Positions 13,988 through 51,655 of a DNA stretch of 64,000 nucleotides are shown here, in pieces (position 1 is the first letter of the stretch; each line of letters starts with the position of its first letter). Source of the DNA: Gautieria morchelliformis (lineage: Eukaryota; Basidiomycota; Agaricomycetes; Gomphales; Gomphaceae). The notes under the pieces are model-generated. The model saw nothing but the letters and a program-made list of their open reading frames with translations, was not told where the DNA came from and searched no databases. The DNA lies in the NCBI GenBank assembly GCA_015179125.1, contig WHVA01000324.1, positions 62,001 to 126,000 on the forward strand, given 5' to 3'. The translations under genes were made by a program, and so were the position numbers.

Positions 13988-14475
13988 TGTTGGGTGCATT
14001 TATGCTCCTGCACCAAAATCAAGCATAATATATTCAATTTATTGTGTGGTGTTTCAATATTTTCTCATACTGTTCTTGTACCATGCATCCATTTCTCTGC
14101 TTATTTTCGAAATTTTCTAGTCACTCTCTATCTCTCCATTTCATTCTGTTATTTCTACTTTCACAGGCGGCTGCACCCAGCGGAGTTTGAAACGACTTCG
14201 ACGCGCGAGCCCTTGGGCGCTAAAGGGCCGGGTGCAAGTATATGCCTTCTGAGACAGGATTACACTCCTCTCTCAGTGACAATAAATTCACTGAGAGAGG
14301 CGAGTAGTATTCTTCATATTTACATAGCATGTTGACTGAAAATCATGTAGTATATTTGATTCTAGGTATTGTATTAATACATCAGTGACAATAAATTCAC
14401 TGAGAGAGTATATTTGATTCTAGCTTTCTAAGAACTCTACCGAACCTTCCCTGCCATAGCCCCTAGTTGCTGACA
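13988..14475 (+). repeat. 5' LTR of copia element
   Basis: 488 bp, TG..CA termini. Short inverted words around CTCTCAGTGACAATAAATTCACTGAGAGAG occur twice, near 14270-14300 and 14382-14408, and can each fold into a hairpin. Matches 18746-19233 without a difference that I could see. Confidence 0.95.
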
Positions 14476-14481
14476 AGGGTT

Positions 14482-17400: not shown

Positions 17401-18732
17401 GGCTTTACACAAAGTTTTGGAGTCGACTACAATGAAACCTATGCACCTGTTGCTCGGATGACTTCCTTACGGATTATATGTGCCATTGCTGCCAGGAACA
17501 ACTGGCCTATTCACCAAATGGATGTGGACAGTGCGTATTTGAATGCTACACTGCCAGAACCTATTTACATGAGACAGCCGTATGGATATGAGACCGGAGA
17601 CAAAGATGATGTCCTCCTGCTGAAGAAAGCACTTTACGGCCTCAAACAGTCTGGAAGGGAATGGTACAAACGTCTGAGTGGTGAATTTCTCAAGTTAGGA
17701 TTCACTAAATCAGCTTCGGATGGAGCTGTATTTTGCAGACGTGGACCGAGAGGGCATGCGATTATTGCAACGGCGGTAGACGACCTCACTATCACAGCTG
17801 AGAGTCAACCAATCCTCGATGAGGTAAAGCATGACCTTGCCCAGGTTTTTAGTATGAAAGACCTAGGCGAGATTCACTGGCTTTTGAACCTCAAAATCGA
17901 AAGAGATTGGAACAACAAATCGATTGCAATATCACAAGCCACATACATCCAGAAAATCATCAAAAAATTCAATCTGGATGATGCCAAAACATTTTCCACG
18001 CCTCTCGACCCAGCCGTTAAATTATCCAGAGACCAATGCCCTTCTACAGACGAAGACAAACAAAAGATGTCAAGAATTCCATACAGACAAGCGATAGGAT
18101 CATTGATGTGGGCAGCAGTAGCCACTCGACCGGACATTGCATTCGCAGTGTCATTACTTTCTCAATTCCTCGAAAACCCAGGTCCAACACATTGGCATGC
18201 AGTCAAACGTGTCTTTAAATATCTAAAAGGCACGATGGACTACAAATTGACACTTGGGAAGAATCGAGACGGCCTCATTGGGTATTCAGATGCGGATTGG
18301 GCTTCTCAAGAGCACAGGCACTCATACTCGGCTTATATTTTTCAGATTGATGGAGGGACAGTATCATGGAGTTGTCAAAAACAATCCATAGTAGCCCTAT
18401 CATCAACTGAAGCCGAATTCGTTGCCCTGACTCATGCGAGTAAAGAAGCCTTATGGATGCGCCACTTTATTTCTGAAATATTCCAACCGCTGAATTGTCC
18501 CATCAAACTTTATTCAGACAATCAATCAGCCATTGCCATCGTCTATGGCACTCAACAACACACGAGGACCAAGCATTTCGACATTAGATTATATTTCATC
18601 CGAGATATAGTCGAAGATGAAGAAATTAAGCTTGTGTACCTACCAACGGAACACATGCTAGCCGATCTTCTCACTAAAGGACTTCCTAGTCCTAGAGTGA
18701 GAATCCTCAACGAGAGAATCGGAATATATTAA
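14482..18732 (+). CDS. copia Gag-Pol polyprotein
   Basis: The single frame is open further upstream to 14467, but the first ATG after the LTR is at 14482, giving about 1416 aa. Order: a UBN2-type Gag (DGSNWPLWRATLTSYF), zinc knuckle CTNCHKPGHAIESC, aspartic protease (ILDTGTTAHMT), Gag pre-integrase (HQKMGHIS), integrase core with SDRGGEY and ENGVAERLNRT-like motifs, copia reverse transcriptase (QMDVDSAYLNA, AVDDLT) and RNase H (GYSDADWAS, YSDNQSAI). Integrase before reverse transcriptase is the defining copia order. It would supply all proteins for virus-like particle formation and integration. Start choice is the only real uncertainty. Confidence 0.95.
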   Translation: MGPADTSQKLLGVEKLATDGSNWPLWRATLTSYFESKNLLRHIEGRAIRPPDPPVMPPGHILTEAEETQIEKAEEKLEKYLAREGQAKTQIIVSVSESLALMLQKRHTAKEVWDALVNEMTKKPKMVLTNLQRQLRSMRCPEDGDLRDHLDKAQDLYARLNEMGARISEGEFTDIILASLPLSYEAVMNALTTSLEECGMPLVPDDIIRVLKAQYDRRKTLNISQEEQAFIGSSTKGQKGRKDPKVPACTNCHKPGHAIESCWAKGGGKEGQGPRQKKKAKAKKKKGKAKANVAEEVSSEEDESGSPAAFANFDCSNLSSLSLDTVVILDTGTTAHMTPHKNLLRDYSPFSQPRTIRAANKGTFDAFGSGSLVLSNKVGDKTVNITLKDTFYAPKMAVTLISIGRCDDAGYNTQIADQKCTISNRKGRILMQAPKLNGLYRFDLQHTSAEAHVCASAMEIHQKMGHISQKSLQHLLNRGMILGIELSSKGDKVVCDACIQAKIAGKSLPQEPRSRSSKFGDRIYSDVWGPARHSTIDKKSYYVSFIDDYSRESVIYLMANKSEAFSKYKLYEALMLRQRNMHIKALVSDRGGEYTSSEFEQHLAKQGTKHRLTVHDTPESNGVAERLNRTLVERARAMLLESSLPKTLWGHAILHANYLRNRTHTRALPDKTPFEMIHHEKPNLKDIHVWGIEVYVKVKEGNKLAARAKRARWIGISGQSHGHCIYWPDSQKVSVERNVIFDSEMKGGKAPIISIEESQLPTSRKVIQAISAPAPMPSRLVSEEAKIEEIDDDEPEERLKELQPSQTVDARPKEAAPTRRSERIRQQQVQPAPSGPVTRSQTKRHAGADITTLAYEDIEDHQDKLFEQDLSSVTDGISDYNLAISTLSTSDQNKDKVLPDLNQTEPSNADEALNDPMWKASMDKEYKVLLDKGVWEVVKPPPGANIVGNRWVFLWKRNPEGEPITPRSRMVAQGFTQSFGVDYNETYAPVARMTSLRIICAIAARNNWPIHQMDVDSAYLNATLPEPIYMRQPYGYETGDKDDVLLLKKALYGLKQSGREWYKRLSGEFLKLGFTKSASDGAVFCRRGPRGHAIIATAVDDLTITAESQPILDEVKHDLAQVFSMKDLGEIHWLLNLKIERDWNNKSIAISQATYIQKIIKKFNLDDAKTFSTPLDPAVKLSRDQCPSTDEDKQKMSRIPYRQAIGSLMWAAVATRPDIAFAVSLLSQFLENPGPTHWHAVKRVFKYLKGTMDYKLTLGKNRDGLIGYSDADWASQEHRHSYSAYIFQIDGGTVSWSCQKQSIVALSSTEAEFVALTHASKEALWMRHFISEIFQPLNCPIKLYSDNQSAIAIVYGTQQHTRTKHFDIRLYFIRDIVEDEEIKLVYLPTEHMLADLLTKGLPSPRVRILNERIGIY

Positions 18733-29904: not shown

Positions 29905-30745
29905 GCTTTTCAACATGTTATACCCCAATCCCATACCCTGGGCCCGAGACGCACCTTTGATTCCAACATCCTCTGCCAGGCCGTCCTCATGGACGAGAAC
30001 ACAATCAAAATGGTCTGGCTCAGGGATTTTGTGTCCAGGATTCGGTGACCTGGTGTTGCTCGGATCATGTCACGTTGGGTCTCATCAGTAAGTCGTTGGG
30101 GCGATGGGATCTCAATGGTGATTTGTTTATAGACGTCTACGAAGTCATACACCAATGCGGTGACACAGCACTTTGGGACATATTCATTTAGGTATGCCTG
30201 GAGCGCTGGCACAAAATCCACGGCTCCATGGATCTTGATGAGAGTTTGCACAGGGGTTTCGGCCATGGTGCACGCTTGGCAATACTCCAGGTGGGTGCTC
30301 CTGTGGCCATCATGGTGGTTTGGACTCGATCCACTCGGTCCTGGTCATGTAACAGTGGGTCCGCTTCATTGGAATTAGACTCACTATCTGGGATTGCATG
30401 TGTCCAAACAAGAAACCCCATGAATTTGTGGATGGCATCACGATGCATCAGGTATGAGACCATTTGTTCGGTGTAATTTTTCTTGTTACTAGCACGATAG
30501 GCCTCTTTGGCAAAGTCGATGTGCAGGCGCTCTGAAAGTTCAGTGTTAAACCCATCAGATGTCCCTTTTGCTCGGATGAGTACAATATAATGCTCCATCA
30601 TATGAATCTTTGGGACTCGGAAGTGCTTGCGGATACCTAGCCTCACGAAAGTCTCTTTGTGCTCGTGGAAGGTATCCAGGGCATCTTGGAGCCTTCGCAG
30701 AGTCTCAGTAGACTGTGAGGGATAGGATGCATAATATATGAAGTC
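29905..30745 (-). pseudogene. Plavaka transposase, C-terminal segment
   Basis: Continues after the LINE with DFIYYASYPSQSTETLRRLQ, then VPKIHMMEHY and GFNTELSERLHIDFAKEAYR, the hallmark C-terminal block of Plavaka. A frame change near 30260 is followed by IHGAVDFVPALQAYLNEY and TIEIPSPQRL. Recognisable similarity ends near 29910. Confidence 0.88.
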
Positions 30746-30756
30746 ATGGACCAAGG

Positions 30757-33708
30757 ATGGCAGGAGAGAGGGCAAGGGGAAGGACGGCAGAGCAGGCTAG
30801 ACGACTACGGGATTGGAACGCACCGCGAACAGACGCAAACAGGACAGCAGCAGGACAACAACAACGCACCGATCCCACAATGAATAGAGCCGAACAACAG
30901 ATCCAAAATTTGAGAATCAGACAACAAAACGTGAACAAGTCACTCACCGCCACAGCGGAAATGCTAGCTAAGTGCACGGCTGATCACTACGATATCCTTG
31001 CGATTCAAGAACCATATATTGACTTTTTGGGAAACTCCAGGGCCACGCATAGCTGGTACACAGTATATCCGAGGACGCACTTCCAGAATGGAGGGGCAAG
31101 GACGAGGTCGATGATACTGATAAACAAAAAGATCGCGACGAGCGCATGGGGGGCGATGGAGGTAGGATCGCCGGACGTCACGGCAATAAGCATCAAGACA
31201 AGCGCGGGTAAAATAGCAATCTATAACATATACGCAGACGTTGCACAGTCAGACAGCATAAGGGCCATGCGAAAACACATACAGGACAAAGCAGCAGAAG
31301 AAGCCACACAGGGAAGGGAGATGGAAGAAATGCTATGGCTAGGGGATTTCAATAGGCACCACCCACTATGGGACGAGCTACGCAATTCGCACCTATTCAC
31401 CAGAGCCAATCTCGACGAGGCGCAAATACTGCTGGACGCCATAGCGGAGCAGGGGATGCAGATGACACTGCCCAAAGGAGTGCCGACCCTGAAAGCGATG
31501 GCAATGGGAAACCATACTCGAACAGATAACGTATTCGCCTCACCTTCGCTAGCAGAGAGACTGATCATTTGCATGACAGTGCCGGAGGAGCGCCCACCAA
31601 AAACCGACCACTATCCCATAGACACGAAGATAGACCTCACAGTCGAGACCGCCACGCACAGACCAAAACGTAACTACAGGCAGGTGGATTGGAAAGCATA
31701 CAACAAGGCGTTAGAAACGAGGTTGGAACAAGTCATAGAAGACCCAACCCCGAAGGACCAACGACAGTTCCATACCCACCTAGAGGCGCTCATCACAGCC
31801 ATCAGCCATCCTGGACACCACGGAAGAGCTAGTGCCGATGAGCAAACCCTCGCTGTACGTAAAGCGCTGGTGGTCGCTCCAACTGACTCAGAAGAGGAAC
31901 GAGACGATGCGCTTGGGAAGAAGGGCTTACGCAAAGAGAAACGACCCGACGCACCCCACACACGAAGAGTACAGATGCGCCAGGAACAGCTATCCTGGAG
32001 CAATAGAAGACTCAAAAAAAGAGCACTGGGCCGAGTTCCTCGCAAGCATCAATCCCAAGACGGTGTGGACAGCGCACAGGTACGCCTCGGCGGAGCATCG
32101 GACGGGGGGATGGCGAGAGCGCCAACGTTGGTAATACAAAAGGACAACAGCACAAAACAGGTGGCAGAATCAAACGAACAAAAAGCGAACATGCTCTTCG
32201 ACGTGTTCTTCCCGAAGACAATAGAAGGAACGGAACAAATCCCAGAGGACTTCGACTACCTGCCACCGGCGTTCGAATACCAGCCAGTAACCGACGGGCA
32301 GATACGAAGAGCAGTAGACAGGCTCAATCGTTTCAAGGCGCCTGGAGATAACGGTATCCCTAATGAACTCATAAAACAGTGCATTAATGTCATCCTACCC
32401 TACATAGGCCCTCTTTTTCGAGCAACGTTCGACCTCGAGGTGTACCCACCCGAATGGAGAGATTCTATCACCAAGGTCCTGCGCAAACCGGGGAAACCCG
32501 ATTACACGGTCCCAGGCGCCTACAGGCCGATAGCCTTGCTCGACACCATAGGAAAAGTACTATCAGTGTGCGTCGCAGAGGACATAGTGAAAATGGCAGA
32601 GAAGCACCGGCTGCTACCTGACAACCACTTCGGGTGCAGACCGGGCAGGACGACTACGGATGCCATTCACCACGTGGTAGGACAAGCGAAGGACGCCTGG
32701 AGGAGAGGAAGGGTACTAGGGGTACTATACCTAGATATAAAGGGGGCTTTTCCTAGTATCGTGCTGAAGAGACTGACTCACAACATGCGCAGGAGAGGAA
32801 TACCACGTGAGTACACGGACTGGATACACAGGAAAGTCCAAAATAGGCTAACAGTCGTCAGCTTAGATGACCACACCTCAGCGACCAGGCCCATAGGGCG
32901 GGGAATGGACCAGGGCTGCCCCCTGTCAGCAGTCACGTACCAATTCTACAATGCGGACCTCATCAACATCGCGCAGAGTAGCAGGGGAGAAGGCTGTGTG
33001 GGGTTCGTGGACGACACGACCCTAACAGCGGAGGGGAAGGACTTACCTGAGGCATTCAGAAAGCTGACGGAAATGATGGAAAGGCCCGGAGGAGCGTACG
33101 ACTGGGCGGAACAACATCAATGTCAATTCGCGGTAGAGAAGTTTGGGCTGATGGGTCTCACCAGGAGAAGAGAGAAAGACCCGGCGAGACCGAGGAAAAC
33201 CAAGCTGACAACGAGGCCGACAATAAAAATAGGAACTCATGTGGTGCGGCCCACGGTGGCTCACAAATTCCTAGGGGTGATAATGGATCAGGAGTTGAGG
33301 TTCAAGGAACACGTCAACTACGCTCTGAAGAAAGGGGAAGCATACGTGGGGCAGTACAGAAGATTGACAAAACCGTCGAAGGGGATAATAGCTAAGCACA
33401 TGCGGACTTACTACCTAACTGTCGCAATCCCGAGGATGTTATACGCCGCTGATGTCTTCCTCATGCCAGAATCGAACAGGACCAAAGGAACGAAGGGCTA
33501 CATAAACAAGTTAGCCAGAATCCAGAGACAGGTCGCGATAGACATCACAGGAGCGCTGAGAACCACAGCCACAGACACGCTCGACGCCCACGCCGACCTC
33601 CTACCGTTCCCGCTGCTAGTGACCAAGATAGTGCACAGGGTGGCAGTACGGCTAGCGTGCCTGCCCCAGGGTCACCCGCTAGCAGAGAGAACGAGGGAGA
33701 GCGGCTAG
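30757..33708 (+). pseudogene. LINE endonuclease and reverse transcriptase
   Basis: The 983-codon frame opens with an Arg/Gln-rich stretch, then APE-type endonuclease motifs IQEPYIDF (near 31010), WLGDFNRHHPLWDE (near 31350) and TDHYPIDT (near 31605). Reverse transcriptase motifs are FKAPGDNGIPNE, YLDIKGAFPS, RGMDQGCPLSAV, FVDDTTL (catalytic, near 33010) and FLGVIMDQE. Between about 31855 and 32105 the frame is out of register: the expected linker (KRWW, RRAYAKRNDP, DSKKEHWAEFL) is readable in the frame of 31832-32134. Two compensating indels therefore keep the frame open while replacing about 80 residues of the linker. RNase H follows in another frame downstream. Confidence 0.88.
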
Positions 33709-33745
33709 GAGGTACGTCAAACGCCACAGATCGCCGTTACACGAG

Positions 33746-34873
33746 ATGATGCACGCCTTCGAGCTGAATCCAGACACAATGGAGAAGATCCATATGGTGG
33801 TGCTCGGGCCCAAGTGGGCCCCGGCATTCAATGCAAGGATCCCACCGTCCAAGGAGAAGGCGAAGGAGGAGATAGATGCTGACAAAGCAGAAGTGGTAGT
33901 ATACACGGACGGATCCTGCATAGAGGACGGAGTAGGGGCTGCAGCGGTGATGTACAAGAATGGGAGGGAATGCAAGACGACAAGGCTGTACATGGGCCCA
34001 GAACATGAGCACACCGTCTTCGAAGCGGAACTAGCGGGCGCAGCCATAGGGGCGAAGATGCTCAACATGGAACGCGGAGGCAGGTACACCATTGCCCTGG
34101 ACAACCAAGCGGCTATACAGACAACGAGGAAAGAGCGCGCAATTCCCGGTCAATATCTCATCAACGCAGTCCATAGACAAATTCAGGGCGTAGTGCAACA
34201 GCCGGGAGCCAAAATCACTATGAGATGGGTACCGGGGCACGAAGGGGTAGCAGGGAACCAGAGGGCGGATGAGGAGGCGAAGAAGGCGGCGAGCGGAGAG
34301 ACCAGCGAGGAGAGGGACATACCAATCGAGTGCCGGGGAACGATGCCAACGAGCAGAACAGCAGAGGTCCAGAGGCACGGCACGAGTCTGAAGCAGAGAG
34401 CGAGGGAAATCTTTGCTAAGTCACCTAGAGCTATGCGAGCGCACGAGATTGACCCCACCATGCCGTCAGCAGCCTTTGCGAAAATCACGAAGAACATGCC
34501 GCGCAAGCAGGCCAGCCTACTCATACAGCTAAGGACGGGACATATACTGTTAAACAAGTACTTGCACAAGATAGGAAAAGCGGAATCGCCTTTGTGCCAG
34601 GCGTGCGGGAGCGCGCAGGAGACAGTACAGCACTACCTGTTTCAGTGCCGGGCATACAAGGAGCAGAGGCAAAAGCTGGAGAGAAAGCTGAAACGGGGAG
34701 CGAGGTCCCTAAAAACACTGCTAGGCGGGCACAAGGCGCTAGAGCATCTATTTGGATATATACAGGACACGAAAAGGTTCAAAGATCAATATGGAAACGT
34801 AGCCCTACCACCGGCGAAAGAGGACACACGAGGAAGAGCAGACGGACGACAGCGCAGGGAGAGAAGGCGCTAA
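33746..34873 (+). CDS. LINE RNase H and C-terminal zinc motif
   Basis: This 375-codon frame contains the RNase H residues in YTDGSCIEDGVG, VFEAELAGA, ALDNQAA and MRWVPGHEGVAGNQRADEEA, and then CQACGSAQETVQHYLFQC, the CCHC motif that closes Tad1-type ORF2. It overlaps no stop-free continuation of the upstream frame, so a frame change near 33710 separates them. It digests the RNA strand of the RNA-DNA hybrid during second-strand synthesis. Confidence 0.88.
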   Translation: MMHAFELNPDTMEKIHMVVLGPKWAPAFNARIPPSKEKAKEEIDADKAEVVVYTDGSCIEDGVGAAAVMYKNGRECKTTRLYMGPEHEHTVFEAELAGAAIGAKMLNMERGGRYTIALDNQAAIQTTRKERAIPGQYLINAVHRQIQGVVQQPGAKITMRWVPGHEGVAGNQRADEEAKKAASGETSEERDIPIECRGTMPTSRTAEVQRHGTSLKQRAREIFAKSPRAMRAHEIDPTMPSAAFAKITKNMPRKQASLLIQLRTGHILLNKYLHKIGKAESPLCQACGSAQETVQHYLFQCRAYKEQRQKLERKLKRGARSLKTLLGGHKALEHLFGYIQDTKRFKDQYGNVALPPAKEDTRGRADGRQRRERRR

Positions 34874-35047: not shown

Positions 35048-36152
35048 ATATATGAAGTCCACAACAGCGCGAGTGACTGCGGTCACTTCTGGGTGGACCG
35101 CACCATATGTCAGGCTTGCGAAGATGCGCTGCATCTCCTTGAATTCACACCCTGTCCACTGCATAATAGTAGAGATTCCTTTCTTGAAATGTTGCAGGTC
35201 GGATGGTCTGGCATGCATTGAAACCTTTGATCTATTTCCGCGGCACCAGCATGCATGAGACACCATTTCACAAGGTGATCTTTGAATACCCCCTTGTGAA
35301 GTTGGTGCAGGAGGTCAGCCGTATGAGGCAGTTCAGCCCAGAATGGTTTGGAGATTGGACAGAGGCCTAGCCATGTACATTCTTCTGAGGAGACTTCTGC
35401 TACCCAGTCGAGGGCACTCAGGGTACGAACCGAGTCCCGGAATGGTGCATGGCTGGGTTCCCCACGGTCATCGGAGTCAATTTCACAGATGGGGCAATCA
35501 GATTTTTGGACACCGGCAATGAGGCATTGCTTGGGAAAGTCAGCAATATACGCAGCCAGGATTGGGTAAACCATGCGAATGTGCCGGTCAACACAGGTCA
35601 TTCGCACACCATTTTTGCCAGCCGCAATCAATGGTTCCAGGAGGATGGACATGAGAAAGTGAAAGAGTCGAAACCCAGCTCCTTTGCGGGCTTTTTCGTG
35701 GAGACACTCGAGTTTCATGACAGGCAGGTATCCAAGCAGTATCATGCCCCGTTTTGATGTCTGACAACAAACAGCCTTACAGATGTTTCCAATTGATATA
35801 TAAACAGGCCACGCTTGTTTGTCTCCACTGAACTGAGACAGTTGGGTCTTGTCTGAAGCCAGTATCACAGGTGCAATGGTTGCACCGCTCGGAAGTTTTT
35901 CCTGGATGGGACCATATTGTCAGTTACAGTCCACCTAAAATACTAGTGCTCTCACCTGCGTGTCCCACCACCACTGCGCGGTCCACATTTCATTGATGAT
36001 CTGTTCTTCCTCAGATTCATCCCTGAACACATGTTCGGGCTTGTATTTCATAGCATCCCGAAAGTCTGGATTCCCGATTAACTCGCGTACGCATTCAACA
36101 GGATCGCGACACCATATGTCAAGATCCTCCTGGATGGGCTCACCATTCTCAT
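35048..36152 (-). pseudogene. Plavaka transposase, central segment
   Basis: Starts NENGEPIQEDLDIWCRDPVE directly after the Tc1 element, then INEMWTAQWWWDTQ, an intron at about 35897-35949, and APVILASDKTQLSQFSGDKQ, followed by AAYIADFPKQCLIAG, CPICE and LPHTADLLHQLHKGVFKDH. A frame change lies near 35213, after which HFKKGISTIMQWTG continues. The segment ends at the LINE insertion with AVVDFIY. These motifs are strongly Plavaka-specific. Confidence 0.88.
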
Positions 36153-36154
36153 TA

Positions 36155-36452
36155 CACCTGTTTGCAGTACGTAAGGCGCACGTCAAATTTGATTCCATTT
36201 TAGCGCGCAAAACTCGAACAAGGATTTCTCACTAGCTTCTGCTTGGATTGCCTTGAGATTTTTTACATGAACATATGTTGATCATAGCTAGGGCACAGAT
36301 GTATGAAATCCAAGTAAAACAAACTTTTGAGTTTTTCATTTTTGGCCACTAGGCTGGGTGGTCAAACACCCTTTTGTGAGCATCCAAAGGTTTGCATTAA
36401 TAAATAACTACATATTCTTCATAGGTACCAGTCTAGATAGAATAATGGCAAG
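36155..36452 (+). repeat. left terminal inverted repeat of Tc1 element
   Basis: About 298 bp, matching the reverse complement of 40560-40864 with roughly ten differences and two short indels. Similarity stops near the shared word AGAATAATGGC. Confidence 0.93.
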
Positions 36453-36538
36453 TTGATGTTGTTGACACTTAGCTAAGAAAAGTCAAAGTTCGACCATTGT
36501 TTCGGGAACTTCCGGAAACACTGTATGTGGTCATCTGC

Positions 36539-37739
36539 ATGCCTCGCCCTCTCAACCCTCATCCCATTCGCCGCAATTACAGCAAGGACTTGCGGGATCG
36601 AGTTATACACCAGAAATTCAAGCTTCAAAAGAAATCAACTCAGATTGCCATTGACCTTGATATGTCATTGCGTGTTGTTCAGCGCACAATCAAGCTCTGG
36701 CGTGATATTGGCGATGTTATAGCAGAGCCAAGACGGCTCTCTCGTAGTCCAAAGATGTCGCCAACTCAGGTTGAAGTAAGCTGTTTGTACCTGAGTTTGG
36801 CTATAGCTTATTTTATAATAGTTTCTTCTCGCACTTCTTGAACGCTCGCCCGACCTTTACCTTGATGAACTCGTTGAAGAGCTAGAAGTGCAGCATGGCA
36901 TTACAGTAAGTATTTCAACTGTATGGAGGACACTCCATGGTCTTGGTTTGCAAAGAAAGAAGGTGAGTGTTAAATCCTGCAGGAGCACACAATCTTTATT
37001 CCTTCCAATCCAGCTTTCCCGGGCAGCAGCAGAGCGCTGTGAAGGTTCACGGATGGCTTTCCAGTTATACATCGGTGCTGAGCCACCCGAACGGCTAGTT
37101 TTTACGGATGAAAGTGCGATAGATCTTCGCACAACTTACAGGCTAATGGGATGGGCTTCTAAGGGCTGCCGACCCCGAGTTCGGGCACGCTTCCAAAGAG
37201 GCGAGAGGTGACGATCTGTATACAATTCTCTTTAATGTATCACTGACATTGTTTTAGATTTTCAATCCTTCCGGCACTATCACAAGATGGCATTATATAT
37301 AGTGACATCAAGTTGGGGGCATACGATGGTGACGCGTTTCTTGCGTTTCTTGAAGGTCTGTTAGAGGTCATGAACCCCTATCCGGCACCTCGAAGTGTTC
37401 TCGTTATGGATAATTGCGCCATACATCACGTACCTGAGGTCAAGGTCCTGTGTGCCAAAAGGTATACTGACTCTCTGTTTGCGCAAGCAGTGTCTAATAG
37501 TGTCATATGTTTGCAGAGGCGTCAAGCTAGTATATCTTCCGCCATACTCACCCGATCTCAACCCCATAGAAGAATCATTTTCCTTTATCAAAGCTCACCT
37601 CAGACGTCACGGTGCTGAGTTCCGCGCCTGCGTGGCAAGTAAAGAGAAGGCCCGACCTTTCATGTTTCTGTACGAGGCACTGGATCAAATTACACCGAGA
37701 CATGCGCAAGGGTGGATGAAGGACTCGGGTTATCTGTAG
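36539..37739 (+). CDS. Tc1-type DD34E transposase, five exons
   Basis: Cut-and-paste transposase acting at the inverted repeats. Exons 36539-36775, 36822-36962, 37014-37207, 37258-37461 and 37517-37739 join in frame through GT-AG introns of 46-55 bp and total 999 nt (332 aa). The N-terminal helix-turn-helix region reads YSKDLRDRVIHQKF and DMSLRVVQRTIKLW; a second winged helix is DLYLDELVEELEVQHGIT. Catalytic residues lie in VFTDESAID, VLVMDNCAIHH and PYSPDLNPIEESF, with 34 residues between the second D and the E. No stop or frame change was found, so it may be functional. The start ATG at 36539 begins MPRPLNPHPIRR. Confidence 0.93.
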
Positions 37740-38165
37740 GACTGGAGGATATGCTACTGTGGGGAGCACGAGTCTGTAACTGCAGTGTACTCAACCTTTG
37801 TTCTATTCGCTCACGTTACCTGAGCAGTATATGAGGGGTTTTGCTGTCATAGATGTGCCACGACACTGCTAATTCTCCGTGCACTCATAGCACGAAGAAC
37901 TTGTACCCAACTGTATCGTGACAGGGACCAGTTTGACGCATTTAGTATTATTGTGTGTCGTGTCAACGAATTAGATGTTCGAATGGATCTTCAAGGTCGC
38001 CTACGAAGGAACTTTTATTCTGTAGGCTCAATACCGGCGCGTGAAACATACTACATGTTGGATACTAAATCAATAAGGGTCGGATGGCGATACAGTGCTT
38101 GTTAGAGACACAATGAAGACAAAATGCGAGTGCTAGTGCAAATAAGAGTGATACTTAGAGGGGGT

Positions 38166-39250
38166 TTATTCTGTGATCTTCGATATGCGAAGCGGCAATT
38201 CGCTCGCTGTCCGACCCTGCACGCGCGCCCGTACAACGAAGCTCATGAAAGGTTCTATCGGCTTTTCAGGTACTACAGATAAGTTGAACTGGCGCAACGG
38301 AATCGCGACCAAAGCCTGTGAAGCGTCCTTAGCTGCGATTCGTAATCGCAGAAGATGAAGAGTACCTTCATTTCGATCAGGGCGAACTGGCGACCTGGAC
38401 ATTTATGTGGACCGAAACTAGACGTGGCATCAGTCGATGTAGACAGGATAGAAGAATCGTGCAGAGTGCACACACCTGAATGCAAAGAGCTCTTTCTGAC
38501 GCACCGCACGTCCCTCTTTCTTATCAGCCTCCATTTCCAGCCAATGTTCTGGACTAAAGTCAGCAGCATCGGCGCCCCAGAACTCCGGATCAGTATGTAG
38601 GATGTTGACAGGAATGTTGATGACGGTGCTGCGTGGGATCACCATTTCGCGTGCCATCGTTCCAGAGAGCAGCTTTGAAAGTGGGACGACATTGTCTTTT
38701 GCGGACTAGACACGTGCGAGGGTCGTGGGTCAGCTTTCAGCTGGCCGGGAAATAGACACGAGGCTCACAACATGGGTTAGTTCAATAATCGCAGGGTGGA
38801 GACGAAGACACTCTTTGAGGACTGCGTCGAGGTATGGGACTCTTTCCAGGAGGTCATCGTAAATGGGTTCTGCAGCACTGGCAGTTACTTCCTCGCTGAG
38901 TGACGAGTAGACTCGGATCAGTATTTGCGGCCGAATAGACAAGTTTTCAGCACGCACCTGAATCGGTTTGCCCACCACTGAACGTCCTCTTCAATGGCCT
39001 CGCCCTGCGCATCGTCGATCCTGGATGACAGAGTGTCTGCCATCTGAAAAGAGATGTCAAATACGACCTCCACTGGATGAAAAGTAACATACCTTTGATG
39101 CTAATGCATAGAATGTGTCGAGCAGAGGGCGAATAGACTGTCGGCTGGATACAGGTAATTCGATGATAGTTGTGCTTCCATTTAGTTCACATGCGTGACA
39201 GTGATGGTCACGTGCCTGCACTTGAATGTCCGACGATGATTTCTTTGCCA
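38166..39250 (-). pseudogene. cytochrome P450 relic carried in the Tc1 element
   Basis: P450s are haem monooxygenases. Visible in order on the minus strand: LLDTFYALASK, MADTLSSRIDD and WWANRF; then SLSEEVTASAAEPIYDDLLE and the ExxR helix LDAVLKECLRLHP; then IPRSTVINIPVNILHTDPEFWG and DFSPEHWLE; the haem site FSFGPHKCPGRQFA; and a C-terminal strand. Introns at 38706-38768, 38418-38475 and 38316-38365 splice cleanly, and the second creates FSFG at the haem motif. The stop is at 38166-38168. The N-terminal membrane anchor and substrate region are missing, and the I-helix (AGxxT) expected between WWANRF and the ExxR helix is absent, so it cannot be a working enzyme. Confidence 0.8.
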
Positions 39251-39255
39251 TCAGC

Positions 39256-39347
39256 ATGTCTAGTCTACCCCCTCCTCCGCCTGGCTTTCCAGGCTTGCCT
39301 CAACCGCCACCTGGCATGCCGCTAGCGCACCTGCAGACACAGTGGAG
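39256..39347 (+). pseudogene. proline-rich first exon, possibly Prp40/FBP11-like
   Basis: An ATG is followed by MSSLPPPPPGFPGLPQPPP, then HLQTQW and a GTAAGT donor at 39348. Proline-rich starts with QTQW leading into a WW domain are typical of Prp40-type splicing factors, but no WW exon follows. It begins immediately next to the 5' end of the P450 relic, head to head, suggesting a patchwork join near 39250. The family is a guess. Confidence 0.3.
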
Positions 39348-39739
39348 GTAAGTTTTCCTTCTTTGAATCTACATTCATGATGCTGACCGGATCTGTGCTT
39401 TGTTGCATTGTGCTCTCTGGAGTGCTTGTCGCAGGCTTGTTTCTATCTTTTTTTCAAGTAAAATAGCAAGTCCTGTGCAAAATAATGGAAGGCCCCCTGC
39501 GCCAGTCAGAGCGTTTGGGCCAGCTTAGGTCTATTGGCAATTCCCGGCCCAAAGCTAAGGTGCGCATTCTTTACGATGTGACACGCATTGCTAGCAATCA
39601 TATTATAATCTTAGATTTCACCTATACCTGTTTGCCCGCATTATGATCACCAAGATCATCATTCGCAAGGATACAATCATCCTGAAGAATTGTCTAATAC
39701 ATCATACGGTCTTCCATGCCGACCCCTTAATTCCCGCGA

Positions 39740-40190
39740 CACCCGCCTGGGCGGTCGTTCCTCTGCGACCGCACCGGGCGCCGCCGCCTCTTCCTCCTCT
39801 CCTGCGCGGGGATGTCCCTCTTCTTCACGCTGCAGACCATGTGCAGCGCGCAGTTCGCGATCACCGGCTCGACGGCGGCGCACGCGAGCTCCGCGCTGGG
39901 GAGGACGGCATCGACGCAGCAGAGCGCGCGGCGTGCGGCCTGACGCTGACGCGGAGGAGGCGCACGCGGGGCCGACGGTGAGCGTGCTGAGGCGTGGCGG
40001 GAGGCGCGCGGCGAGGGCGGGCCAGTGCACGGGGGGCACGTTGACAAGGGCGAGGCGCGAGCGCGAGGACGTGGTGCACGGCGGCGAGGCACGCGGGGGG
40101 CCACGCGAAGGTGTCGAAGGGCGCGGCGGAGGCGGCGTCGTCCAGGGCGAGGGCGGGACAGCCCGGGGCGCCGATGGGCACTCTAACAAA
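39740..40190. other. very GC-rich block inside the Tc1 element
   Basis: This block is far richer in G and C than the AT-rich terminal repeats and transposase around it. Open frames occur on both strands (for example 40189-39677 minus) with Arg/Ala/Pro-rich translations that I cannot assign. It is probably captured sequence. The composition jump is visible; origin is inferred. Confidence 0.45.
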
Positions 40191-40559
40191 AGGCGAGTTG
40201 CTTCTAAGGCACGCTGTTACGATCGATATACTGCGCGGTCCAGGCCCACTCGCGGAATATTTGTGCATTTGATCCACGAGTTTACCCGGGCCGCGAGGAT
40301 TGAAGACCTCCGAGCGAGCCAGTCGAGCGGTCGTAGTACGAGTACGAGTACTGCCTAGAGTAAGGAGTATTATATATGTGACATCTGGTAGCGCGGAGCG
40401 CATTACTACTTACTGGTGTGGAGTCACCTTAAACCCGGTATTTATCATGCAGGAGAGGCACATTCGAGCATGAGGCGGCGGATGTGCGTCTGCGATCCTT
40501 GGTAGTAGGTCGAACAGTCTTCTCTTGGGGCTTATGGACGTGGCGGTAGCGGGTCAACA

Positions 40560-40864
40560 ACTAGCCATTATTCTATCTAGACTGGTACCTATGAAGAATA
40601 TGTAGTTATTTATTGCAGTGATGCAAACCTTTGGATACTCACAAAAGGGTGTTTGACCACCCAGCCTAGTGGCCAAAAATGCAAAAACTCAAAAGTTTGT
40701 CTTACTTGGATTTCATACATCTGTGCCCTAGCTATGATCAACATATGTTCATGTACAAAATCTCAAGGCAATCCGAGCAGAAGCTAGTGAGAAATCCTTG
40801 TTCGAGTTTTGCGCGCTAAAATGGAGTCAAATTTGACGCGCGCCTTACGTACTGCAAACAGGTG
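40560..40864 (-). repeat. right terminal inverted repeat of Tc1 element
   Basis: About 305 bp, inverted partner of 36155-36452. It ends at the TA followed by the Plavaka N-terminal segment. Confidence 0.93.
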
Positions 40865-40866
40865 TA

Positions 40867-41390
40867 AGAACGTCCCCTTTCACGGTGATTGTGCGGCACT
40901 TCCATGGGGGGCCTTGTGGTAGCTTATCTATCTGTTGCAAAAGTGATTGGTTATCCTGGTAGGACGGACCCGTACGCTGGCGTGTCTTCCAAAGGGGTAA
41001 GTTATGCCATTTTGTATAATGCAAAACACCTACAATGTCCAGATTCAGAAAGCGATCTACCTTCATTTGACTCGCACCGCTTGCCATAAGCCACTTGGCG
41101 AGTTCCCATTCCTGTTGGTCCAGGAAAGGCCCAAATATCCCAAAGTCCCCAGATTTCTGCTTCTCTTGCAATTGCTCAAATGTTGTATTGTGTGTACCCA
41201 GGGATGTCCCTGCCGGCTTGAAATGCTCGGCGAAACAACTTGTCAACACCATGTTCCACCTCCTCAACACAAACTTTGGGGTTCTGGAGGTCTGTGTGAG
41301 TAGACCGCCTGTTGAGGGGGGCATTTCCCATGGGCTGTTGCCACCATCTATTTTCGATGTGCGCATGCACGTCCTCTTGCAAGGCAGCCT
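40867..41390 (-). pseudogene. Plavaka transposase, N-terminal segment
   Basis: Contains EHFKPAGTSLGTHNTTFEQL, EWELAKWLMASGASQMKVDRF and LPQGPPWKC, in the order typical of Plavaka N-terminal regions. The last codons before the Tc1 element read TITVKGDVL. Upstream residues (CVEEVEHGVDKLF) are in a different frame, implying an indel near 41235. Beyond about 41390 the sequence is copia. Confidence 0.8.
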
Positions 41391-42323
41391 GCGGCGAACC
41401 CCCAGAGCTACGACGGCCAAGAATATTTTGTCAGTTTTACTGATGACCACAATAGGTGGACTTACCTCGTCCCCATGGCAAGGAAGGCCGAAGTGTTCAG
41501 CTGCTATAGGCAATACGAGGCGTGGGTCGAGACCCAACATGGCGTGAAAATAAAACGCCTGCAAACAGATTGCGGTGGTGAGTATCTCTCACAGGAATTC
41601 ACGGCGCACCTTAAGTCAAAAGGGACGGTACGGAGTCTTACCGTACACGACACGCCAGAGGAGAATGGGGTGTCGGAGTGCCTGAATAGAACGCTGCTAG
41701 AGCATGCGCGAGCCATGCTTCTGACCATAGACTTGCCCAAGTTCAAGTGGACCGAGTCAGTACAACATGCGGTTTGGCTAAAGAATCAGACCTCGACGCG
41801 CACACTCGACAGCAAAACACTGTACAAGCTGGTACACGGCGCGAAGCCCGTTCTCACAGACCTACCTGAGTGGGGCACTACAGTCTTTGTGCTGAAGGAG
41901 CACTACAGCAAGTTGAATGCAAAATCTGACGAGGGCAGGTGGATGGGGTACAGCGACGAGAGCAAAGGGCACAGGGTTTACTGGCCCGGGAAACGCCGTG
42001 TCACGGTTGAACACAACATCACGTTCGACGCCCCTATCCTCGTGACCCCTGCTGATGCACTGGCTGAGGGGGAGTCTGACCCTCAGGGCAGCCAGGGCAC
42101 CAGCAGCATCCCTCAGGCGCAAAGACCACCGCCGTTACTGCCAGTACTACCAGAACCGACCGCGTGGATCGACCCACTCAAGGGATTCGAGGGGGCGGAC
42201 ACACCGGCAGACCCGCCGCAGGGTAGGGGTCAGCGCACGCAAAAACCTTCCGCATACCAGCGAAGGATTGCAGACAGTGTAGGCAGCAGTATGGGCCGCG
42301 CAAACGCACCTGCGTACCTGTGA
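41391..42323 (+). pseudogene. copia integrase remnant
   Basis: Motifs SYDGQEYFVSF, TDCGGEYLSQEF and DTPEENGVSECLNRTLLEHA mark the integrase core, followed by a copia C-terminal region (WMGYSDESKGHRVYWP) and a low-complexity spacer. It is part of the broken second copia element. Confidence 0.88.
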
Positions 42324-46979: not shown

Positions 46980-49535
46980 ATGACCAACAAAATTTCGGAC
47001 GACCGCACAGCATCGCTATCCCAGTTTCCCATGCCTCTCTCTTCGATGCCTAGAAAAAACGCGAGACAACGAAAGCGTCCGCCCATTAACCTAATCTCCT
47101 CAGCAGAATCGGATGGTCCAGTCTTTCCTTCCATCCATGTGACTCTTCCGCCTAAGAAGACCGACCGCGAATCCAAGTCCATTCCCCAACACGTGGCCCA
47201 TCACGACTCAGAACACCCTCCCTCTTTATCTAGCTTGTCAAGCATTTCAACTGATGAGAATCTTTCGCCAAAGAAGAGCGACCGCGAATCCAAGTCCATT
47301 CCTCAACATGTGGCGCGTGACGACTCGGAACACCCTCCCTCTTTATCTAGCTTGTCTAGCATCTCCACTGATGAGGATGAACCCGACCTCGAGCTCGACT
47401 TGAGCACATTTGGCAAGGCTCGCACTGCGAAGTGTGTTCTGTCTCCCACACATTAAGCACAGATCTCATCCACATCCTAGACTCCCAGATCCGTCAACAC
47501 ATTCTGTGGCACCACTCGGGGTAGGGCCGAGACGGTCTGCGCGGCATGCGGATCTTCCAGCACCCGACTACGCGAGAAAACTGGAGCTGTTCCGTGCCTA
47601 TAGCCCCCCCTCTGGAAAGGCTAAATACGATGTTGATGCGAAGGGCAAAGGCAAAGCGATGGTGCCCGATGCTTGCCCACTTGACATGCTACTCAAGGAC
47701 CACGATCGTGAGGGTGCACGCAAGGCCCGTGTTGAGACAAAGCGGAAGCGTGCCCATTCAGACGCTTCTGCCTCTGATCCTGCGTTATCCATGGGCTCCA
47801 ATATTTTTGAAACGCCTAAGCGCGTTCATCCTCACGCACAGACAGACAGTCCCTTTAGTGATATGTGGTCCCCCCACCATGGCCCTGCTCTTTTGAAGGG
47901 AGCCGCCGCTCGCGAAGAATGGCTGGGTAAGAAGGGGGCCAAAGCGGTAGGAAAGATTCTGAACAGCGATCACAAAAAGAAGAGCAACACAGAGGAGAAA
48001 CAAAGTGATGTTTTGTTCTGGAGTAAAGACATCAAGGTAACCACCTTCCTCATGAGTTCTCGCTCTAGCGTTAAAACGTTCTATTAGCAGGGTGATAATG
48101 ACATTGTTCCCGACTTGGTGGCGCCAAACTCCTGCCACCCTCTTTTGACTGCCTTGAACGATGCGATGAACCGCAAGGGTATGGGACACATTTTGTTTGA
48201 TATTTCAATTGTTCAAGGTTGCTATGTCAGAGTATGAGGTTGCCTCCCATCTGCTGGATTCTGGCGCTCTTGCGTCTGCCCCAATTTCAGCTCCACTTTT
48301 GGACTGGCTCTTTGCCGCAGGTACGCCCTCTATGTTATTGCCTTTCCGTTGCTTACTTTGCGAACGCAGCCATGTCCACGGCATGTTGAGATCTCTCGCT
48401 GTCAGCTTATCGATCTTTGTTGCTGTTGCATCGCGAGGTTTGCTCCACGGCAGCATTGGCCCGTCCATACCTTAGCCCCACGCGCCTCCTCACACCACTC
48501 ATCAAACTCCGCGTGAATACGCAAGTCGCTGCAGCGTTTGGAGCTGAGGCGGACGCCATGGTGTCTCCCACGGGTACGAGTCCGGAACTGAAAGCGGAGA
48601 TGTTGTGCCGTTACTTTTCCATGCTTGAGGTGCTCGGTCGGTCTGTAATGCGTTTGTTCCACTCTGCCTCGGTTTACAGCTAACACTTTGTTTGAATTAG
48701 CTCTCAAAGAATAGACCCCACGGCAACACCTTCTATTGTCTCTATTCTTCTTCTCCTCTCCCTAGACCCGTCCGCGGTCCCCGAACTCCAGCAAGACGCT
48801 GTCTCCGCAATCGAAGCCGTTCTCGCAAGCCCAACCGTGACCCGTACCGTCGAGCTCGACACCTGCAAATTCGTCTTGCATGTCACCAAATAAATGGCAT
48901 TCACGCCTGATCTCCAGCTACGCCTTCTTGCGCTCCTGCCTGGGTGTAGGGCTAATTCAGGGCGTGTACGGCGCTGGATCGCATGGGCGATGCTCGGAGG
49001 TGACCTGCACACCTTCCACGCCTGTTCAGATGTCCCGCCTATCCAATTGATGCTCGATATATTTTCCAAGACAGTTCCTGGCGTCGTGAAACTCGGAGTG
49101 ACGCCCGACACAGACTACCAACAGCTCGGCGCCCTCGTCAACATACTCTCGGTGGCCATGACGGACGTCGATGCGTACGTACGCCATGCCAACGGCAACG
49201 GCAGTGTCTTGACTAGAAATGTGTATGAAGCACTCGAGCAGATGAACGGGAAGATTGGTATGTACTTAATGCTAATACACTTTTATGTTAGTTCAACACT
49301 AAACCCTTAATCCTCCGAGTCATTAGTGGATGATCGGGCGGCGCACATGGATCGCACCAAAACGAAGGAGGCCATCAACAGGCTGCACAAGCGGCTTATA
49401 TACCAGCGCCATGCGGTGATGGAGACGTTGCGTACGAAGACAGGGAAAATGGATCAGTTCCTCGTTGCTAAGCCCAAGTCTGCAGCGTCACGGACCAAAG
49501 TCCAAGGCGGAATAGAGCCTACCAAGGGCGAATGA
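46980..49535 (+). pseudogene. CANIN-like (SMC5/6-associated) nuclear protein gene with in-frame stops
   Basis: The N-terminal part is basic and disordered (MPRKNARQRKRPPINLIS). Introns with GT-AG ends include 47432-47480, 48037-48087, about 48179-48217, 48321-48369, about 48630-48700 and about 49258-49327, and the exons stay in register. The helical C-terminal half reads APLLDWLFAA, LRVNTQVAAAFGAEADA and RRWIAWAMLGGD, and ends EQMNGKIV, DDRAAHMDRTKTKEAINRLH and YQRHAV. This resembles fungal proteins with the CANIN domain (coiled-coil SMC6 and NSE5 interacting), which act in DNA repair; the assignment is from memory of the family pattern. In-frame stops at 48387-48389 (TGA) and 48891-48893 (TAA) suggest a pseudogene unless splicing avoids them. 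Confidence 0.6.
47149..47382 (+). repeat. 117-bp coding tandem duplication
   Basis: Two head-to-tail units of 39 codons share PKKxDRESKSIPQHVA and DSEHPPSLSSLSSISTDE with few differences. The duplication is in frame and lies in the disordered N-terminal part of the CANIN-like gene. Confidence 0.93.
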
Positions 49536-50034
49536 AGGAGGTCCGCCTGATATTTTGCTAGCACCAGGATGTACTATGTCTACAATACTACTGTACTGTA
49601 CTGTAATGGGACCGACGTATTTGTTTTCGATTCTCACGCTCTTGTCGTTGTACGCGATGGCTCGACCTGCGTACGTGCCACTAGTGACTGACAGCGTCAT
49701 GAGCATGGAGTACGTAAGTGTCTTTATTTTTGTTTAGCTGATTGTCATACTATTATATCCATGTATATACTCAAGTCTACCACAAAGGCTCTACTTGTAT
49801 TAGTTGACTGTCCTACAGTAACCATGTCACATTGCATGCCATGTACTTACATGGTTTCTCCATTCTATTGATTTGATCGGCCAGTGCACTGCTTCCGGTA
49901 CATTATTCAATCGCATGCTTAGCAGGTACATGAAATATTGACTGGGTATCAGAGGTATGGAATTCAATTAGCACAGCAAATGTCAGAAGAATATACATCT
50001 ATAGTACACACTAAACGATCAGTACTGTACTCTT
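49536..50034. other. intergenic region, no gene seen
   Basis: AT-rich sequence between the convergent CANIN-like and receptor genes. It presumably holds both 3' ends. No repeats or RNA genes were recognised. Confidence 0.5.
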
Positions 50035-50036
50035 TT

Positions 50037-51655
50037 ATCTCCCTGAGGACTTATACTTATCCCCGCCTCGGTCAATGAACAGTACACTCTCCTCCCCACC
50101 CGACTGAAAACTTTTCGGAGCGTGACTACCGTAGAGGATCACAGGGGTATTGGCAGTGAGGGGGGACGCAAGTTGAGAACCGGGGGATTTAATAGACTCC
50201 CCGTCGTTTGACGTCGAATTATCATGCATGGTGACTTGTTGGGTGGTGATACGGATCCCTGAGGCGGGGGCATTATTTCCTTGTAATGAAGTTCTTCCGT
50301 GTAGTGAGGACTAATATTGTATTTGATACGCCTTAAGCGTCAAGGCTGACTCTCGAATACGAGCACGAAATAATGAGGATACTTACCGCTACTTCCAAAA
50401 CATATACCAGCGAAGACCAAGAGACCGAAAGGTGGCTCCCAGCCAGCCAACACACCCATTCGGCATACCGAAACGGGTATCACCACCACAGCGTATACTA
50501 TTCCACGACCATGCATGAGAAACAGGGCATACAATGATTATATTACTCACACACAGGATACCACATGATCCGGCGGGCAACTCGTTTCAACTGCATATTT
50601 GTTGCAGGTACTAAGGAACTCTCGTATACTATGGACTCCCTGATACTGCCAAGGTAGGTCGATGCTGGACGACTCTCACCCGTGACCAAGTTGGCACAAT
50701 GAAGTCTTCCCGTCTCGCGAGGCTTTTCATATGCAGAACGTTGCCTTGTGGGCGAAGAAACTTGTGATGCAGACAAATAAAGGGGAGGCGGACGACGGAA
50801 ATGAAATCGGACTTTTCCAGTATCATCATAAGTGATGAAACCAGAGAAGCGTAGTGAAATGAGTGCTGATCGCAGAATGAATGGTCGTATGTGCGTGACG
50901 AGCAGTGCAAGAGCGGCGTACTGTAAATGATGAACGATGAACCGAGAGCTGCGAATACCCAGCCCTATGAAACAGTCAGTACAACAAATCAGGGTATATA
51001 CAGCAGATATCAGAACAGTAGCAAAATACTGACGTAAAGAAATATCAGCCGTTCTGCGCTGTATCCTGTCCCAATCCAGCACCATGCACCGCTGAGCCCG
51101 TAAAACGACCCGCGGGCGGGTGTCTGGATTACTGTCGGTCCAAGGATGGGAGCAACTATCAGCATAGACCACCCGGCAACAAGAACACCCAGCATACTCC
51201 AGCGGTGTGGCTGTTTGATTAGGAAAAGAAGCCTAAGGTAGGCACGTGTCAGAGACGGCGTAAGAAAACTTGCTCATGAAGCGAGCTAAGATGACACGGG
51301 ATAACGCAGCATGCCTGGTTGACGGGCAAAGAGATCATACCAACCAAAACGTGTGAAACGCAACTGCGGTGGACCAAATGGCTGCTCCTAGGTCACCGAT
51401 TTGTGACACCACTCCCTGTATCATACATATTATCCCGTCGTCCATCATACCTTTTGCTGCCCAGTGAAAATTGAGCGCAAACGCCACCCCTTGACGAACC
51501 AAATGAGGCGAGACTACCAATCTTATGGTGGGGCGTACCTTGCAAAAATCACTTACGACTAAAGATATCAAATACCAACCCAGGGACGATAATGTAAATG
51601 TACGAAGGCCACGGGAGAAAGGTTTAGATTTGTCGCCCGCGGAATACGCGTTCCA
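50037..51655 (-). CDS. fungal seven-transmembrane (GPCR-like) receptor, helices 2-7
   Basis: Exons read on the minus strand: 51655-51539 (LRTFTLSSLGWYLISLVVSD, helix 2), from about 51489 (GIICMIQGVVSQIGDLGAAI and STAVAFHTFWL, helix 3), about 51210-51033 (GVLVAGWSMLIVAPILG and FYGLSGAWCWI, helix 4 and the extracellular loop), about 50955 on (GWVFAALGSSFIIYST, helix 5), then VARRIMWYP, and 50525-50384 (VVVIPVSVCRMGVLAGW and GLLVFAGICFG, helices 6-7). FYGxSGxWCWI and RxxxWYP are typical of the fungal cAMP-receptor-like family. A Ser-rich tail follows to 50037, but a TAA near 50275 interrupts one reading of the last exon, so the C-terminus is uncertain. Helix 1 is not on this strand. Confidence 0.72.

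Follow-up and report, generated by a model that had tools for sequence, protein, structure and literature searches.

Host-gene pieces within a young, probably self-mobile Tc1/mariner element of Gautieria morchelliformis

Tc1/mariner transposons are usually compact and carry a single gene, although this form is not strictly defining, and a 4710-bp member in the genome of Gautieria morchelliformis therefore raises the question of what its additional DNA is and how it came to be there. The element lies at positions 36155–40864 of a 64,000-nt stretch of G. morchelliformis DNA (the window, to whose positions all coordinates refer unless a contig is named), with a TA on each side. An initial annotation of this DNA had proposed a cargo-bearing, possibly self-mobile Tc1 lineage in mushrooms. 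Our analyses support that proposal: the transposase is intact, insertion at TTAA duplicated the TA, the same cargo occurs at different places and donor-like genes are present elsewhere in the genome. As a correction to the phrase "in mushrooms", the host is a gomphoid false truffle. We consider it likely that the element is young and probably self-mobile, and that it belongs to a Tc1/mariner family which has taken up pieces of host genes.

The TA duplication, the inverted repeats of about 300 bp with roughly ten differences and the apparently intact five-exon DD34E transposase described in the initial annotation were all borne out (Table 1). The left repeat measures about 304 bp and the right one about 310 bp; they are 95.5–95.8% identical and differ by about ten substitutions along with small indels. 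The transposase gene has an open frame of 332 codons, its five exons being separated by four GT-AG introns of 46–55 bp, and its catalytic residues are D158, D242 and E277, with 34 residues separating the latter two. Pfam identified DDE_3 (3.6e-29), HTH_32 (1.8e-9) and HTH_33 (8.3e-7) in the protein. A protein database search with the transposase returned 2104 proteins at an E-value of 0.001 or better; among the best 120 of these the closest were up to 64% identical over part of their length and 58% over the whole length, and the named proteins near the top were from Panaeolus, Pleurotus djamor, Sphaerobolus and Mycena.

The terminal 24 nt, searched with a tolerance of three mismatches, matched the genome 143 times in forward and 138 times in reverse orientation, versus 0 and 0 for a reversed-pattern control; together with an unoccupied site that shows exact insertion (see below), these counts indicate that the element is not a chance arrangement. 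For comparison we used 15 whole elements, comprising the window copy and 14 that we picked from end pairs among the first 100 places listed; the copies in contigs C425 and C604, mentioned below, are outside this set. All 15 have transposase sequence near one end, and their insertion sites all read T-TA[element]TA-A. Their lengths range from 3.0 to 14.3 kb and seven of them contain a second gene, so that the compact, single-gene form does not describe this family. The transposase frame is open in 10 of the 15, including the window copy, C14, C722 and C1. The ratio of nonsynonymous to synonymous substitution rates (dN/dS) for the transposase is 0.085–0.123 between two subfamilies (four pairs, with dS of 0.8–1.0 and thus near saturation); two subfamily 1 pairs gave 0.123 and 0.134. 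We also considered that the ends, which start with CACC, might belong to a CACTA/Plavaka element that carries the Tc1 gene as cargo. This was rejected, as the transposase accompanies the ends in 15 of 15 copies, including those of a subfamily that is about 78% identical, and no match to the Plavaka-type transposase (PF18759) was found among the element open reading frames (ORFs) given to Pfam. The ORFs given to Pfam also yielded no tyrosine recombinase domain of the Starship captain type, although no search aimed at a captain was made.

The additional DNA of the window copy includes pieces of two host genes. What had been read as a P450 relic proved to be the 3′ part of a P450 gene, which lacks the 5′ part of the gene and has an internal deletion, and a donor-like locus was found in contig C431. 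In two other copies, C14 and C722, 1.8 kb matches C431 without interruption, at 94.8 and 93.7% identity, respectively. Two C431 ORFs inside the matching part have a P450 domain (6.2e-8 and 6.1e-4, the latter under the Pfam cut-off), and an ORF with a PARP domain lies on the other side of the matching part. The P450 piece is followed directly, with a 2-bp overlap (AA), by the 5′ end of PRP8, a splicing-factor gene. The proline-rich exon of the initial annotation can now be assigned as exon 1 of PRP8, 148 bp of which (39175–39322) are 96.6% identical to contig C393. In C722 the P450 piece is followed by 0.84 kb that matches C393 at 93%, and C604 has a longer PRP8 piece. A 483-aa ORF of C393 carries PRO8NT and PROCN domains in Pfam, and PRO8NT was identified at 7.4e-61 in the PRP8 ORF of C14.

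A different host gene was found in other members of the family. C1 and C271 contain a 2.6-kb piece that is 97.3 and 97.2% identical, respectively, to contig C286. On that contig a UBA-containing ORF of 835 aa and an exon encoding DUF913 reach past the captured piece; from this pair of domains we take the C286 gene to be HUWE1/TOM1-like. Matches to it occur on seven contigs, with the longer gene on C286, the whole piece on C1, C271 and C425, and parts of it on C400, C316 and C667. At the border of the piece about 6 bp of the element were replaced, with overlaps of 3 and 2 bp and without a target duplication, and in C164 and C1004, which lack the piece, the element sequence is undisturbed at that point. 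The initial annotation had held that copies with the same ends but different interiors, or with the same cargo, would support mobile capture, and both kinds were observed. Conversely, it had regarded cargo bounded by the ends of another element as a sign of later nesting; no foreign ends were seen at the P450, PRP8 or HUWE1 pieces, and longer donor-like genes exist elsewhere for them. At the level of sequence, these data confirm the capture of host-gene pieces by a Tc1/mariner family.

The window copy is young. Contig C1089 contains its site without the element, in that 1255 bp (99.4%) and 1234 bp (99.8%) match the two flanks and overlap by exactly TA, in a TTAA site. Window and contig are collinear for more than 11 kb, at 99% on each side, and window positions 47000–51000 correspond to 10815–14775 of C1089 at 99%, the position expected if the element alone is missing (the second- and third-best matches reach 96 and 95% identity). 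For the left flank, C1089 provided the only full-length match at 99%, the next long match having 90% identity (40 of 404 candidates scored). Because C1089 is collinear with the window at this identity and yet lacks the element, we conclude that the insertion is polymorphic. Based on these matches, C1089 is taken as the other haplotype of the region, although it could conceivably be a recent segmental duplicate. The insertion lies inside a Plavaka transposase gene (PF18759; ORFs 35113–35919 and 40848–41588), the frame of which is uninterrupted at this site in C1089; a retroelement integrase ORF (41316–42320) lies after the Plavaka gene. For two further sites, those of C271 (HUWE1 cargo) and C14 (P450-PRP8 cargo), element-free forms that have a single TA were found in other copies of the repeats in which these elements had landed. 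The window copy and three further 4.7-kb copies are only 1–12 substitutions and 0–26 gap columns apart. When the 200-bp flanks of the 15 elements were compared, C347 and C1083, both 4.7-kb copies, were the sole pair sharing a flank, at 99% on one side and not on the other; this may reflect two insertions at one base of the same repeat, or else a rearrangement.

Several observations weigh against our interpretation. Two other C431 ORFs, which lie beyond the match and resemble 5′ exons, have no P450 domain, so the donor gene may not be intact, and three further P450 loci (C782, C720 and C572) match the piece at 92%; with C431 being the closest, we regard the donor as a P450 gene family of which C431 is the nearest member. 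Only two capture lineages were found, and the interiors of C141, C248, C312, C801 and C763 gave no clear further capture. The 2–3-bp overlaps at the junctions may be chance matches. The transposase frame is broken in 5 of the 15 copies (C1083, C714, C271, C150 and C1004), and one recent pair within subfamily 2 has a transposase dN/dS of 0.82. Lastly, mobility is read only indirectly, from near-identical copies and unoccupied sites.

The additional sequence might also represent other transposons nested in an ordinary small Tc1 element, and nesting is indeed common in this family. C14 has 4.45 kb of extra sequence that is a repeat with many near-identical copies and an ORF with DUF6532; since the two parts that match this stretch flank a Plavaka gene on some contigs (C701, C322 and C207 among them), it looks like a Plavaka element minus its transposase. 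C1004 contains a nested 4.6 kb between its own inverted repeats (about 550 bp, 96% identical), and C141 and C604 contain long retrotransposon-like ORFs. Size alone is consequently no measure of capture, as some large copies owe their length to nested transposons. Nevertheless, the P450, PRP8 and HUWE1 pieces match unique-looking genes that extend past the piece, and the HUWE1 border is a small deletion without target duplication, making it very unlikely that nesting accounts for them. The 550-bp repeats of C1004 recur in many places in the genome and represent another family with long ends. A helicase-like piece in C1004 was an impression from an ORF in which Pfam found nothing, and we do not claim it.

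It is also improbable that the element is a composite, in which two elements flanking host DNA came to move as one unit and so enclosed host genes. The single transposase toward one end, with only a repeat at the other, would fit such an origin, but the pieces derive from loci on different contigs and are joined directly, and the state before the HUWE1 piece entered is still seen in sister copies. A composite origin is possible for the older right arm. The presence of the same cargo in several copies could further be taken to mean that it is retained for some benefit to the host or the element, as with Starships and other cargo-bearing elements of fungi. The substitutions argue otherwise, falling at all three codon positions. 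In the HUWE1 piece there are 9, 11 and 15 changes at codon positions 1, 2 and 3 in C1 (1414 sites) and 10, 11 and 16 in C271 (1415 sites), and in the PRP8 piece 9, 5 and 7 in C14, 6, 5 and 6 in C722 (504 sites each) and 22, 16 and 28 in C604 (1193 sites). Moreover, four of these five copies have frameshifting indels (there are none in C271), and the P450 piece of the window copy lacks its 5′ part and is internally deleted. Judging from these changes, the captured pieces show no sign of retention for function, and we give selection for the cargo very little credence.

Not all of the additional sequence is captured. The GC-rich block listed in the initial annotation among the extra sequence is real (75% G+C), but as a fresh host capture it was rejected, as it belongs to the right arm of many members: it recurs in many places at 80–98% identity, several of them beside the second gene, and the ORFs tried in it gave no Pfam match. 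From this distribution, the block is an older family component of the right arm in many copies. The left 3170 bp of the window copy are closest to C14 and C722 (98–99%, with C1 92% identical over the shared 1.7 kb), while the right 1544 bp are closest to C1 (98%), and the switch falls within PRP8 exon 1. By these similarities the window copy derives from larger two-gene elements, through deletion or recombination. It could be purely an internal deletion of one C604-like ancestor, without recombination between elements, for C604 combines all of the parts: the P450 piece, PRP8, the second gene and the right block. The right block of the window copy, however, is 98% identical to that of C1 versus 93% to that of C604, and we give pure deletion somewhat less than an even chance.

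The second gene is convergent to the transposase and is present in full-length members of both subfamilies (C1, C271, C164, C1004, C150, C156 and C183). The window copy and its three 4.7-kb sisters showed no trace of it, and neither did C14, C722, C714 or C158. Its core of 444 codons was modeled from C1, with a provisional N-terminus. Between the subfamilies its dN/dS is about 0.21 (434 codons, dS about 1.0), which indicates purifying selection; the C150 copy has one in-frame stop. Among the matches listed, we compared a hand list of 76 second-gene loci with 97 transposase places: at least 42 of the 76 have a transposase within 12 kb, and the arrangement is convergent in 42 of these 42. At least two of the 34 loci without a listed transposase (C1004 and C150) do carry one. 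Two protein database searches with the second protein gave six matches, all of them G. morchelliformis proteins; no match outside Gautieria was returned by this search, which covers annotated proteins and needs shared 5-residue words, so that absence is not proof. Pfam found no domain in the protein and the AlphaFold2 model was unusable (mean predicted local distance difference test score of 36). It is conceivable, though we hold this only tentatively, that this is a two-gene Tc1/mariner lineage in which a convergent, selected protein, so far seen in Gautieria alone, helps to keep unusually long elements mobile, with the result that repeated uptake of host DNA is a habit rather than an accident.

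A subfamily with TACACCCG ends (C150, C156, C183 and C158) has a FunK1-type kinase gene and long runs of simple proline/glycine repeats. The kinase was identified by Pfam in C150 (PF17667, 5.2e-22 with stitched exons), by similarity in C183 and C158, and from the ORF list in C156. As a core gene of the whole family it was rejected: these four copies belong to subfamily 2, and a similarity search did not find it in C1, C164, C1004, C14 or the window copy.

Elsewhere in the window, an NLR-like gene lies at 1080–4489, where an ORF containing 14 WD40 stretches comes after a NACHT-like (NPHP3_N) ORF. A non-long terminal repeat retrotransposon lies at 30742–34870, its two long ORFs having domains for endonuclease, reverse transcriptase, RNase H and zf-RVT. 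An uninterrupted ORF of 1421 codons is also present (14467–18729).

Table 1. Features of the Tc1/mariner element and its insertion site, in window positions
Feature	Position	Strand	Remarks
Left TA target-site duplication	36153–36154		Site TTAA
Left terminal inverted repeat	36155–36458	+	About 304 bp
DD34E Tc1/mariner transposase gene, 332 codons	36539–37739	+	Exons 36539–36775, 36822–36962, 37014–37207, 37258–37461, 37517–37739
Captured 3′ part of P450 gene	37953–39158	-	Donor-like locus C431; about 615 bp deleted internally, at 38896
Captured 5′ end of PRP8 with proline-rich exon 1	39159–39322	+	Donor-like locus C393; direct similarity 39175–39322; cut within exon
Right arm common to C1-type copies	39323–40554		Includes GC-rich block 39760–40200
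Right terminal inverted repeat	40555–40864	-	About 310 bp
Right TA target-site duplication	40865–40866

As to how the host pieces entered, the transposase would, as in other members of the superfamily, cut the element at its inverted repeats and paste it elsewhere. Repair of a break or excision gap inside the element may have used unrelated loci as templates, with template switching at matches of 2–3 bp, and the enlarged element would subsequently have moved as a unit. The window copy would later have lost its middle, comprising the rest of PRP8 and the second gene. Either a larger ancestor was deleted internally, or a left part of C14/C722 type recombined with a right part of C1 type.

Carriage of host genes by Tc1/mariner elements is already known, and the Gautieria family is a further form of it. 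Ant1 of Aspergillus niger, an ascomycete, is said to be a Tc1/mariner-type element of about 4.8 kb with short ends and a piece of an amylase gene, and we know of no family with varied cargo in that case. The initial annotation had named MULEs, Helitrons and CACTA elements as cases of described capture, but capture by Tc1/mariner elements is in print as well (PMC3538342 and PMC8903248). The latter describes Pack-Mariner, a group of Pack-TYPE elements in plants that is non-autonomous by definition. Mariner-type ends surround host-gene pieces in both cases, with a parental-like gene elsewhere in the genome as for Pack-TYPE elements; unlike Pack-Mariner as described there, the Gautieria carriers retain an intact transposase and have full-length relatives with a second gene. 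In Pyrenophora tritici-repentis, Tc1/Mariner transduplication was reported for an element whose inverted repeats enclose an additional ORF and which is present in 46 copies (PMC3538342). That element has one coiled-coil ORF and no donor genes are shown in section 20 of the paper, whereas the Gautieria data comprise two capture lineages with pieces of three host genes, along with donor-like loci, the junctions and an allele that lacks the element. The Pack-TIRs of animals arose by gap filling with microhomology (median 2 bp, 190 of 281 cases; PMC8277862). The HUWE1 and P450-PRP8 junctions look similar to these, although Pack-TIRs are mostly single-copy and neither mariner nor Tc1 is mentioned in the main text of that source. 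Fungal DNA transposons, some of them in Agaricomycetes, have captured a TET/JBP accessory gene (PMC12730594); the gene is a different one, and the main text of that source also lacks the words mariner and Tc1. No published description of the Gautieria family was found in the literature searched, the coverage of which left out most subscription papers.

A single genome contains the donor-like genes, the junctions, the intact transposase and also shortened forms and an allele without the insertion, so that the individual steps of gene capture, and how much length Tc1/mariner transposition tolerates, can be tested directly. Conservation of the second gene suggests that a partner protein can be needed by, or of advantage to, a Tc1/mariner element. 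If true, this would change how members of the Tc1/mariner superfamily are recognized.

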